This document shows positions 6,563 through 39,186 of a DNA stretch of 64,000 nt, piece by piece. The position numbers were made by a program, and so were the translations under genes. The stretch comes from Catillopecten margaritatus gill symbiont (lineage in GTDB: Bacteria; Pseudomonadota; Gammaproteobacteria; PS1; Pseudothioglobaceae), in the NCBI GenBank assembly GCA_037956075.1, contig CP138327.1:806001-870000 (forward strand), written 5' to 3'. Each line of letters begins with the position of its first letter. The first letter of the stretch is position 1. The notes under the pieces are model-generated. The model saw only the letters and a program-made list of their open reading frames with translations, had not been told where the DNA came from and did no database searches.

Positions 6563-6668
6563 AAGTGTTAGAGTAACGAAGCAACCATTATTAAGATGAT
6601 ATATTCTCTTAATAATGGCTGACTTCCAAGACAGTGTTTTTTATTAATATTTTTTAGAGAGAATAATT

Positions 6669-7829
6669 ATGCCAACAGGCCCAAGAGAAATTATCACCCC
6701 CTTCCGTCCTATCCCATTAGATGTGCCAGAAGGAATGAAGCCAAATGAGTTTTTTAACTCACCGGAAAATTTAGCTGATTTAGCCAATAATAATGGCTTA
6801 CTGACAAATAATGAAGATTTATTACTGTATAGAAAAGCACTGGGGCATTCAAATGAATTTGATTGCTCTATCATCTACAACACTTCACAAAAAATTCTAA
6901 ACCCACTCGGCAGGCCTGTTAGACGCACACAAGTACCTGATAATGTGAAAAATGTTTGGAATCGTATGAATCAAATCATCATTGGCTTTATGCTGGAACA
7001 ATATCCAGATCCAGAAAAGCATCTCGTTTTAGCCGGCGAAGCATCACTGGACTCTACTTGGCCGATTACTTCGCCAGGAGTGCCGAGTATTCGTATGTTA
7101 CACAATCATTTTATTGTGTTTGATAAACAACAACTTAAAGATGCGCCGTTGACAGACATCAACAATCCGAATTTAACAGATGGCGGGCAACATTCTGTAT
7201 TTTCGGCCTATATGAAAGATGTTTATATGGAGTTTATGTCATCGTTAGATTTGAAAATTTTAAAACCAACTATCGGACAATCGGCAGGACTTGCGCTGAC
7301 TGGCTACCCACAAGGCTTAACCAGTTGGGAGATTCAAGGTGGCATTGAAAGTTTAAAGAATATTGATTTTTGGCACGAATACGATCAAATTCTTAAAGGC
7401 TTTATGGACTTCTACCGCACTTTCTTTGCACAAGTATCAAGTAGAAATTCAGGCGTACCCAAAAGGGCTTACTACCCTAAAGAAATTGAAAGAACCTTAT
7501 TGTTTAACAATGGCTTTTTATCGGCAGCCAAAAAAGTACGCGAAAAATGCCTAAATGATGCAAAATATGCCTCAGATATGCGCTGGCAACCTGCCTTCAA
7601 ACAACTCATCTATCGCGATAGTAATGGCAGATTAATCGTTACCATTTCTCAAAACTCAATTGGCAATGCTATTACTGAACTTCTAGGTGTTGTGGTTAAG
7701 CGCGAACCAAATGCTGAGGCGTATGAGAAAGCTGAACCTGCATTAATTAATAAGTTGCTTCAAGTGCGTTCAAGATTGGTTGAAGCCGACTTGGGCAATG
7801 GTATTGCAACTAAGTATTGGGGCAAGTAA
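6669..7829 (+). CDS. Uncharacterised 386-aa protein
   Basis: I do not recognise this family. The frame is clearly coding: a purine-rich site (AGAGAGAATAATT) precedes the ATG, composition is balanced, and a bidirectional terminator follows. There is no signal peptide and no membrane segment, so it is probably cytosolic. Visible features: a Pro-rich start (PFRPIPLDVPEG); a conserved-looking RMLHNHFIVFDKQQ segment (about 140-153) with two histidines before a beta strand, loosely like a HIT/GalT strand but without HxHxH; a Gly/Ser stretch, IGQSAGLALTGYPQGLTSWEIQGG (about 203-226); and a charged helical C-terminal third. It sits alone between the TGTCATTCCGAG-type repeat and a convergent cluster. 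A nucleotidyl-transfer role would be speculation. Confidence 0.75.
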   Translation: MPTGPREIITPFRPIPLDVPEGMKPNEFFNSPENLADLANNNGLLTNNEDLLLYRKALGHSNEFDCSIIYNTSQKILNPLGRPVRRTQVPDNVKNVWNRMNQIIIGFMLEQYPDPEKHLVLAGEASLDSTWPITSPGVPSIRMLHNHFIVFDKQQLKDAPLTDINNPNLTDGGQHSVFSAYMKDVYMEFMSSLDLKILKPTIGQSAGLALTGYPQGLTSWEIQGGIESLKNIDFWHEYDQILKGFMDFYRTFFAQVSSRNSGVPKRAYYPKEIERTLLFNNGFLSAAKKVREKCLNDAKYASDMRWQPAFKQLIYRDSNGRLIVTISQNSIGNAITELLGVVVKREPNAEAYEKAEPALINKLLQVRSRLVEADLGNGIATKYWGK

Positions 7830-7848
7830 TATCTAATCAACATTTAAT

Positions 7849-7879
7849 AAAAAAGGAGTGCATTTGCACTCCTTTTTTT
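7849..7879. terminator. Bidirectional terminator between convergent genes
   Basis: The perfect stem GGAGTGC / GCACTCC (7855-7872) encloses ATTT. It has A-runs on the left and T-runs on the right, so it can stop transcription from both the 386-aa gene (plus) and the SlyD-like cluster (minus). Confidence 0.9.
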
Positions 7880-7897
7880 ATACAAAAAAATAATCAA

Positions 7898-8242
7898 CTA
7901 ATCTTTATTGATTTCTACATTTAAGCCCTTGGTGTTCTTTGATAATGAGAAATCAGCTTGTGCCCTCATAATAGAATCGACACACTCATCAAGGTCAGTG
8001 TATTCATCTGTGCCTGTGTCAAAACGCTTATCACGCATAAAATAAAACATGTTTTTAAAGGTGTCTTCTGCTATTTTTAGTACAACAAAAGTGTAGTAGC
8101 CATCTTCCCAAACTGCCGAAGGTTTTTCTTCGCCACCGACTTCGATATCACCCATGTGTACGCCGTGATCTTTTTTAGTCCAGCGTGCATCAACCTGTTT
8201 TTTAATCGCATCAATTTCAGCTTGTGTAAAGTCTATTGCCAT
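7898..8242 (-). CDS. Hypothetical 114-aa acidic protein
   Basis: No family recognised. The soluble protein is rich in Asp, Glu, Lys and aromatic residues, with no signal peptide and no cysteines. It appears mixed alpha/beta: an N-terminal helix (TQAEIDAIKKQVDARW), a GDIEVGGEEKPSAVWEDGYY turn region, and a helical C-terminal half with TDLDECVDSIMRAQADF. It is last in a three-gene minus-strand cluster, 20 bp after the SlyD-like gene, which suggests co-expression. The bidirectional terminator at 7849-7879 follows. Confidence 0.7.
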   Translation of the reverse strand: MAIDFTQAEIDAIKKQVDARWTKKDHGVHMGDIEVGGEEKPSAVWEDGYYTFVVLKIAEDTFKNMFYFMRDKRFDTGTDEYTDLDECVDSIMRAQADFSLSKNTKGLNVEINKD

Positions 8243-36397: not shown

Positions 36398-37237
36398 ATG
36401 TGGTCAAATAATTCAAGTTATCAATACTGGCGAGATGAAAAACTGGCGAATGCAGTGCAAAGTGTTGAGGCGTGTTCGGTTGAAGTTTCTAATCCCTTTG
36501 CTTTGAGTAAGGCTGAAAAGGATAAAATCCAACAACTGTGCCGTCATAATAATTTTGCCCTATTTGAAACCCCTGCGCAAACCAACTACGCCGATGCCAT
36601 TAAGCAGTTTAATCAGCAATTCGGTTTAACCGATCAAGACCCTCATCTTTATGTGCAACAGGACGGGCTGGCACACATCACCCAAAGCGAGCAAAAAAGA
36701 CAAGCAGATTTTATTCCCTATACCAATAAAGCCATCGGCTGGCATACGGATGGGTATTACAATACGCTGAGTAATCGCATTCGTGCATTTTCATTGTTTT
36801 GTGTTAACCCTGCTATCAAGGGCGGGGAAAACAGTTGGATAGACAATGAAATACTCTATATTTTATTACGCGAACAAAGCCCAGAGGCAATTGAACTACT
36901 AAAGAGAACAGATGCAATGACAATCCCCGCACACGAAGAAAAAGGCAAAATTCTACGCCCTAAATCCACCGATGCGATTTTTATGCTGGATAACACACGC
37001 CTTTATTTGCGCTACACACAACGCAAAAAGACGGTGCAGTTTGCGAGTGAAGTAGGTGCGGCAGTTGCCTTATTGGATGAAATTTTAGCCAAAGGCAGTG
37101 CCTATCATTTTCAGCATTTAATGGCAAAAAATCAAGGTATTATATGTAACAATATTATTCACAAACGCAGTGGTTTTGTGGATGATAAGGATAATTCACG
37201 GTTACTTTTAAGGGGGCGATATTTTGAAAGGGTTTAA
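36398..37237 (+). CDS. TauD/TfdA-family Fe(II)/2-oxoglutarate-dependent dioxygenase
   Basis: 279-aa non-heme iron oxygenase homolog. The metal-binding HxD is WHTDGYY (H125 region) and the distal His with the 2OG-binding Arg fit NNIIHKRSGFVDDKDNSRLLLRGRYFERV near the C-terminus. There is no signal peptide. Substrate unknown; taurine is not implied by the family name. It heads a run of five genes each overlapping the next by 4-14 bp (dioxygenase, pentapeptide-repeat gene, ampD, kdsC, MGMT-like). Confidence 0.85.
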   Translation: MWSNNSSYQYWRDEKLANAVQSVEACSVEVSNPFALSKAEKDKIQQLCRHNNFALFETPAQTNYADAIKQFNQQFGLTDQDPHLYVQQDGLAHITQSEQKRQADFIPYTNKAIGWHTDGYYNTLSNRIRAFSLFCVNPAIKGGENSWIDNEILYILLREQSPEAIELLKRTDAMTIPAHEEKGKILRPKSTDAIFMLDNTRLYLRYTQRKKTVQFASEVGAAVALLDEILAKGSAYHFQHLMAKNQGIICNNIIHKRSGFVDDKDNSRLLLRGRYFERV

Positions 37238-38698
37238 CATTATAGACAGGATAAAGCACAATAAAAAAATTAAAAGACTGCAACAACAACACAATAAATT
37301 CACAAAATTACCCAGCACTTGGGCAAGAATTGTTATTGTTATGCTGTTTTCTACAGTGTCAGGCGTGTTACTTTGGTTTGTTTATACAAATCCTTGTGGA
37401 TGGGAAATATTTAACGAGACAACAATAGACGCAAAAAGTATTATTTCTTTAACCACCTTAATAATAACAGCCCCCATTGTTTTTGCTATCTGGGCATTTC
37501 GTGATAAAAATAAATTATTGGAATTAGAAAATGCTAGAAAAGACACTAACCTCAAGGAGTTTCAACAACTACAACGCTGGGCAACAGGCAATATTGAGGG
37601 TGATAAAGACAATGAAGACAATGAAATTGCTTTACAAATATCTGCTCTGCACTCCTTGCGTGGCTACCTCAAAGGCGAATATGGCGAGAGTTTTAGGCGG
37701 GGTGCGTATGAGATTTTTCGTGCCGCTTTAGCCACTCAACATCAAAAAATTATAGAACGAGTAAAAGGTAAAGAGTTTAAAAATATAACGGATGCAATAG
37801 ATAAATGCCCACTAACCAAACAACTCAATATCATTGCTAATGAAGAATGGTTTAATTTATTGATTAATCACAATTTTCCTACTAACAATATCAGCTTGTT
37901 AGGCGTAGATTTACACAAAACCTATCTACATCATCGTATCTATGGCAAAACACTAGATTTGACGCATGCACAATTACAAGGGGCGGATTTGGGGCAGGCA
38001 CGATTACAAGGGGCGGATTTAGAGGAGACGCAATTACAAGGGGCGAATTTGAGGGATGCACAATTACAAGGGGCGGATTTGAGGGATGCACAATTACAAG
38101 GGGCGAATTTGAGGATGCACAATTACAAGGGGCGAATTTGAGGGATGCACAATTACAAGGGGCGAATTTGAGGGATGCACAATTACAAGGGGCGAATTTG
38201 AGGGATGCACAATTACAAGGGGCGGATTTGAGGGATGCACAATTACAAGGGGCGAATTTGAGGGATGCACAATTACAAGGGGCGGATTTGAGGGATGCAC
38301 AATTACAAGGGGCGAATTTGTGGGATGCACAATTACAAGGGGCGAATTTGTGGGATGCACAATTACAAGGGGCGGATTTGAGGGATGCACAATTACAAGG
38401 GGCTTATATATCCAATAAGGGGCTTGAATTCTTGAATTTTGAACAACAAATAGCACAACAAATTGGCAAAGAAACCACTACAGAGGCTTTAGAAAAACAA
38501 TATAAAGCACTGGATGAAACACAAAAATCACAATTGATTCAAGCGTTAAAAGCCGTTAAAAGCCAAAATACTGATGCAGCAATACAACGCATTGAATCTG
38601 CCTCAGAAACATTGAATTTATCAAAGGCAACCACAGGAGCCTACAGTCAAGAAGAGGCAGATAAGTGGTTAAACGATTATAAAGAGCAAAACAAATGA
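37224..38698 (+). pseudogene. Pentapeptide-repeat membrane protein, frame broken by 1-nt deletion
   Basis: TTG start at 37224 with ribosome site AAGGGGGCG. About 250 residues precede the repeats: a basic N-terminus, two membrane helices (about 33-52 and 72-93), then a charged cytoplasmic region (GDKDNEDNEIALQISALHSLRGYLKGEYGESFRRGAYEIFRAAL). A tandem array then encodes ADLRD-AQLQG / ANLRD-AQLQG pentapeptides (A(D/N)LXX). Near 38113 one unit has GAGGATGC instead of GAGGGATGC, losing one G; the frame then ends at 38141 (305 aa). The -1 frame continues from the remaining repeats to 38698 with an intact helical C-terminal domain. Restoring one base gives 491 aa. Either a broken gene, a phase-variable one, or a sequencing/assembly error in the repeats. 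Overlaps dioxygenase by 14 bp and ampD by 4 bp. Confidence 0.75.
37980..38398 (+). repeat. 14-unit 30-bp tandem array in the pentapeptide gene
   Basis: Thirteen 30-bp units plus one of 29 bp. Unit form GGGGCG(A/G)ATTTGAGGGATGCACAATTACAA. The first two units are diverged; most of the rest are identical or differ at one or two positions (GCGAAT or GCGGAT; TGAGGG or TGTGGG). The 29-bp unit is 38100-38128. Such DNA-level identity points to recent expansion or gene-conversion-like slippage, and it also makes assembly of this stretch prone to error. Confidence 0.95.
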
Positions 38699-39186
38699 CA
38701 ATTAAACAAACCCCTTCACCCAATTATAACAAACGCCCTAATGGCGAGATTTCGCTGATTGTTATTCATAATATATCACTACCACCGAACGAGTTTGACA
38801 ATGATTATATTGAGCAGTTTTTTACCAATCAATTAGATTTTGATAAACACCCTTATTTTCAAACTTTGATGGGTGTTGAGGTGTCGGCGCATTTATTGAT
38901 TAAACGCGATGGCAGCGTGATTCAATTTGTGCCTTTTGAAAAGCGCGCTTGGCATGCAGGGCGCTCAGAATTTAACGGTAGGGAAAATTGTAATGATTTC
39001 TCAATCGGCATTGAATTAGAAGGGGGTGATGAAATTAAATATACCGATCAACAATATCAAGCACTCAACGAGCACATAAAAACATTAAAATCACACTATC
39101 CGATAACAGATGTTGTTGGACATAGCGACATTGCCCCAGGTAGGAAAACCGACCCTGGGGCATCTTTTGATTGGAGCAGAATATGA
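38695..39186 (+). CDS. ampD: 1,6-anhydro-N-acetylmuramyl-L-alanine amidase
   Basis: Cytoplasmic zinc amidase that recycles peptidoglycan, releasing peptides from anhydro-muropeptides. In 163 aa: VIHNISLPP (H at about 26), the catalytic region SAHLLIKRDGSVIQFVPFEKRAWHAG, IGIELEGGDE, and a C-terminal VVGHSDIAPGRKTDPG, supplying His-His-Asp zinc ligands and the catalytic Glu. Overlaps the pentapeptide gene by 4 bp and kdsC by 4 bp (ATGA). Confidence 0.95.
   Translation: MTIKQTPSPNYNKRPNGEISLIVIHNISLPPNEFDNDYIEQFFTNQLDFDKHPYFQTLMGVEVSAHLLIKRDGSVIQFVPFEKRAWHAGRSEFNGRENCNDFSIGIELEGGDEIKYTDQQYQALNEHIKTLKSHYPITDVVGHSDIAPGRKTDPGASFDWSRI

Follow-up and report, generated by a model that had tools for sequence, protein, structure and literature searches.

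A one-base loss in a near-identical coding repeat array splits a predicted membrane-anchored pentapeptide-repeat gene in the assembled genome of a glass scallop symbiont

The closest described systems to the gene reported here are the pentapeptide-repeat proteins (PF00805), whose A(D/N)LXX-type repeats occur in both of its halves; the topoisomerase-protecting proteins Qnr and MfpA, which likewise carry pentapeptide repeats; and coding VNTR genes that vary in copy number (some are phase-variable), which share in-frame, near-identical coding repeats and an expected gain and loss of units. We analysed a window of 64,000 nucleotides (C1:806001-870000) from a genome (G000) assembled as a single contig of 1,542,691 bp with 99.99% completeness and no contamination. 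It matches the genome of Ca. Thiodubiliella margaritatus, which lives as an ectosymbiont on the glass scallop Catillopecten margaritatus; the published sequence is one circular contig of 1.54 Mb that is 99.99% complete and 0% contaminated by CheckM2 (PMC10999363). That genome was assembled from Nanopore reads with Canu and Racon and polished in Pilon with Illumina reads, 43% of which came from the symbiont (PMC10999363).

The gene stands between ampD and a TauD/TfdA-family dioxygenase gene present in 12 of 12 genomes of the genus, and is read in this assembly as two ORFs (Table 1). The 3' end of the TauD-like gene overlaps the ORF1 start by 14 bp, and this start has the strongest Shine-Dalgarno-like duplex among the starts compared (-14.2 kcal/mol). 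At the far end, ORF2 and ampD share an ATGA overlap, and the Shine-Dalgarno-like site of ampD itself is weak (-2.1 kcal/mol).

Table 1. Features of the split gene and its neighbours, in window coordinates.
Feature	Position	Strand	Detail
TauD/TfdA-family dioxygenase gene	36398..37237	+	PF02668, E 1.1e-17
ORF1, N-terminal half of the pentapeptide-repeat protein	37224..38141	+	305 aa; TTG start; stop TGA after the deletion
Membrane helix 1 (predicted, about aa 35-54)	37326..37385	+	Kyte-Doolittle windows > 1.6
Membrane helix 2 (predicted, about aa 72-92)	37437..37499	+	Kyte-Doolittle windows > 1.6
Conserved core past the helices, ARKDTNLKEFQQLQRWATG...GVDL	37500..37913	+	dN/dS 0.10-0.15
Repeat array, 14 units and a partial unit, coding AQLQGA(N/D)LRD	37968..38404	+	thirteen 30-bp units, one 29-bp unit
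29-bp unit (codon phase)	38088..38116	+	38100-38128 of the initial annotation in a different phase
AAGGGG, Shine-Dalgarno-like, 5 nt upstream of TTG 38138	38127..38132	+	duplex -8.4 kcal/mol
TTGA, ORF1 stop TGA overlapped by possible ORF2 start TTG	38138..38141	+	sequence, ORF list
ORF2, remaining array and C-terminal domain	38138..38698	+	186 aa; frame of the original protein
C-terminal domain	38405..38698	+	kept in relatives; without a clear Pfam family
ampD, 1,6-anhydro-N-acetylmuramyl-L-alanine amidase	38695..39186	+	NF008758, 266.9 bits (cut-off 143)

TRF, read with the sequence and the ORFs, places a period-30 array at 37957-38403 (14.9 copies, 93% matches). Split unit by unit from 37968, it holds fourteen units, exactly one of which is 29 bp long (GCACAATTACAAGGGGCGAATTTGAGGAT). 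Most other units finish GAGGGAT or GTGGGAT, and the missing base falls in the GGG of GAGGGAT in the fifth unit. An array of fourteen near-identical units goes beyond chance. Because the pre-break frame meets TGA in most units downstream of the break, a one-base loss halts translation within one unit: ORF1 stops 8 codons past the shift (TGA 38139-38141). The third frame is open through the array end.

These results confirmed the central claim of the initial annotation, that a one-base deletion splits a pentapeptide-repeat gene, with a single 29-bp unit, coding frames on both sides and an intact C-terminal domain. Both frames do encode pentapeptides, scoring 72.1 bits (ORF1, E 2.6e-20) and 96.6 bits (ORF2, E 5.5e-28) for PF00805, above the Pfam gathering cut-off of 20.2, and the C-terminal domain aligns over its full length with relatives. 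The two switching mechanisms offered in the same annotation lost ground. Slippage in G-runs is weakened by a run of only three G, and phase variation through unit number as such by a 30-bp unit of ten codons, in which only gain or loss of the 29-bp unit shifts the frame.

A further early claim, that the protein is membrane-anchored and not of QnrB type, stood as well. Two membrane helices are supported by hydrophobic stretches whose Kyte-Doolittle means reach 2.3 and 2.2, and Qnr NCBIfam models (cut-off 240) gave 31.0 bits for an intact orthologue, 22.7 for ORF1 and 38.5 for ORF2. A Pfam profile search of the N-terminal half returned no match, and the intact orthologue's array matches solved pentapeptide structures by sequence. 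AlphaFold, given each ORF as a single sequence, modelled ORF1 and ORF2 poorly (pLDDT 51 and 57), with helices in place of the expected beta-helix, and these models were discarded. The product is best described as a membrane-anchored pentapeptide-repeat protein, for which a beta-helix is expected from the family.

The gene is accessory. It occupies the same locus, between the TauD-like gene and ampD, in genus relatives G050, G052, G053 and G059; in G051, G054, G056 and G058 an AmpD-like frame directly follows the TauD-like gene, the pentapeptide gene being missing between them. The G057 contig stops just inside the gene, and G045, of another genus in the same family, carries an intact relative at a different place. 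Among 274 sampled genomes of the class, and among 83 of the order that all belong to this family, the N-terminal part is restricted to Thioglobaceae. A search of phages found no DNA matching the N-terminal part, and PADLOC gave no match for the gene. A different membrane pentapeptide gene in G051 (L058, reverse complement, last 330 bases), close to a contig end, has a frame shift at a seven-T run in its array.

The membrane segment (37224-37913; L015, L016, L017) comes in two types, one in G000 and G059 and the other in G052 and G053. The scallop symbiont genome is reported to be nearest to those of Bathymodiolus septemdierum symbionts (PMC10999363), and segment types that cross genome kinship suggest allele exchange at the locus. 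Compared by eye, the AmpD of the scallop symbiont (38695-39186; L028, L016) looks nearer to its counterpart in genomes without the pentapeptide gene than to that of G052, which may be a further sign of recombination here.

At the same locus, G059 and G053 keep the gene as one ORF (510 and 499 aa). G052 matches AP013042, the genome of the B. septemdierum symbiont from Myojin Knoll, which was sequenced on PacBio, 454, Sanger and Illumina platforms (PMC5486853). It carries a single 29-bp unit of its own, ending GCGAATTTGATAAT. This is its sixth unit (the fifth in the scallop symbiont), the remainder of the gene is intact, and the two short units are independent of each other. We compared reading frames by tblastn among G000, G052, G053 and G059 across their shared block of ~19 kb. 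Beyond the array, the conserved frames of G000 and G052 in this block had no other break (non-coding frames aside), so the sole breaks of both genomes lie in one array, which suggests a hot spot for indels there, whether of mutation or of sequencing. A candidate second break in G000 near atpE was rejected, the site being intergenic and atpE intact. In G053 (L070, about 6625-8122), two frames stand where G059 has a single open frame (97% identical, probably atpA), likely a sequence error near the start.

A recent break is the likeliest account of the scallop symbiont gene, and a residual consensus error comes second: a Nanopore indel left by Racon and Pilon, with near-identical 30-bp units confusing read placement. 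We consider such an error unlikely, though to be taken seriously. The assembly history fits it (PMC10999363), and a break within a near-identical array of a Nanopore-based assembly sits at the weakest spot for short-read polishing, which counts against a recent break. G050, the record JACCHT010000001.1 (JACCHT, B. septemdierum Lau), which fits an assembly from Nanopore and Illumina reads (PMC7473567), also speaks for error, with many one-base G losses in its array and more breaks elsewhere: in the gene upstream of the array, in ampD and in kdsC. Against an error stand the high depth implied by the symbiont's share of the Illumina reads (PMC10999363), the rest of the shared block, in which we found no frame break, and the same kind of break in the four-platform assembly of G052. 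Moreover, N/D and R/W codons follow an order around the 29-bp unit that is unique in the array, which could allow reads of an assumed ~150 bp to be placed there and such an error to be corrected.

G050 itself looks like an error-rich assembly, since its breaks also fall outside the array, and it was set aside as biological evidence because they are scattered over adjoining genes. Several frame breaks occur within a few kb of this genome (L021), and its gene calls need care.

Sequence constraint speaks to the age of the break. NG86 dN/dS between G000 and the others was 0.10-0.15 in the N-terminal core; in the C-terminal domain it was 0.26-0.35 against genus relatives, within the 0.21-0.74 of pairs without G000, and the domain has no further stops. 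By these ratios, constraint on the C-terminal part matches that seen in intact relatives. With synonymous sites near saturation, the values argue against old decay and read alike for a very recent break and an error. A pseudogene would show relaxed constraint and downstream lesions; we found C-terminal dN/dS in range and no other lesions in the block, which speaks against old decay only.

That constraint also favours a functional split gene, in which both halves are produced, with the TTGA overlap coupling them, and either assemble or work separately. The AAGGGG lying 5 nt ahead of the possible ORF2 start forms a duplex with the anti-Shine-Dalgarno sequence that is stronger than those of 90% of the 39 window genes (gene median -3.8 kcal/mol), and G052 carries the same AAGGGGCGAATTTGA motif past its own break. 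It is plausible from the sequence that the C-terminal half is made by re-initiation at TTG 38138. Were re-initiation to fail, ampD might be translated less, given its weak site. However, AAGGGG-TTG recurs in nearly every array unit, hence the site reads as a by-product of the repeat, and the gene is a single ORF in G053 and G059; we regard a functional split as improbable. RNA structure at the break was no better than in shuffled sequences (z 0.00), so no programmed-frameshift stimulator was seen.

Slightly less probable again is selected phase variation, with the full-length protein turned on and off as unit exchange loses or duplicates the 29-bp unit. Such a unit does convert a change in unit number into a change of frame, one is present in each of two species (G000 and G052), and another pentapeptide array of the genus, in G051, breaks at its T-run. 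Yet changes of ordinary 30-bp units preserve the frame, G053 and G059 lack a 29-bp unit, and three G make a poor slippage site; a literature search connecting pentapeptide repeats to phase variation or to frameshifts found no useful paper. The broadest version, that Thiodubiliella pentapeptide arrays are frame switches whose odd units recur and are duplicated or lost, leaving the membrane beta-helix protein on, off or in two coupled pieces and altering ampD translation, we consider the most doubtful of all.

To the preferred explanation we give even credence: a real, recent one-base loss that struck a selected accessory gene within an array that is minisatellite-like and recombinogenic, reversible in principle and with no dedicated switch. 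Array units average 92.5% identity in the scallop symbiont vs 64% and 73% in the two intact relatives (the G053 figure takes in one non-repeat segment), and this higher identity fits recent exchange among units, a process that probably keeps the array near-identical. One unit would have lost a base, and the odd unit would still await removal. ORF1, terminating 8 codons later, would yield a stub anchored in the membrane and carrying about five repeat units, and the TTGA overlap behind AAGGGG probably permits re-initiation to some extent, which would produce the C-terminal half separately and carry ribosomes towards ampD. Exchange between flanking units that dropped the 29-bp unit would restore the frame in one step, and such healing makes the break reversible in principle without its being a dedicated switch.

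If the break is real and variable, a gene adjoining a peptidoglycan-recycling gene in bivalve symbionts would break and heal again and again by way of its own repeats, a testable source of strain variation within a single gill. An error would be a warning that frame breaks in coding minisatellites can persist in polished Nanopore genomes.

Set against known systems, the scallop symbiont gene differs from other PF00805 proteins in its two-helix N-terminal membrane domain, its core without a Pfam match, its near-identical DNA units and its frame break. It is unlike Qnr and MfpA in its membrane helices, its AQLQGA(N/D)L decapeptide units and its Qnr scores of 22.7-38.5 of 240 bits. It departs from coding VNTR genes in that its unit is a multiple of 3, so that the frame shifts only via the odd 29-bp unit. 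We take the frame break as most likely a recent alteration of an unstable array (or a sequencing error that escaped correction), not a novel type of switch.
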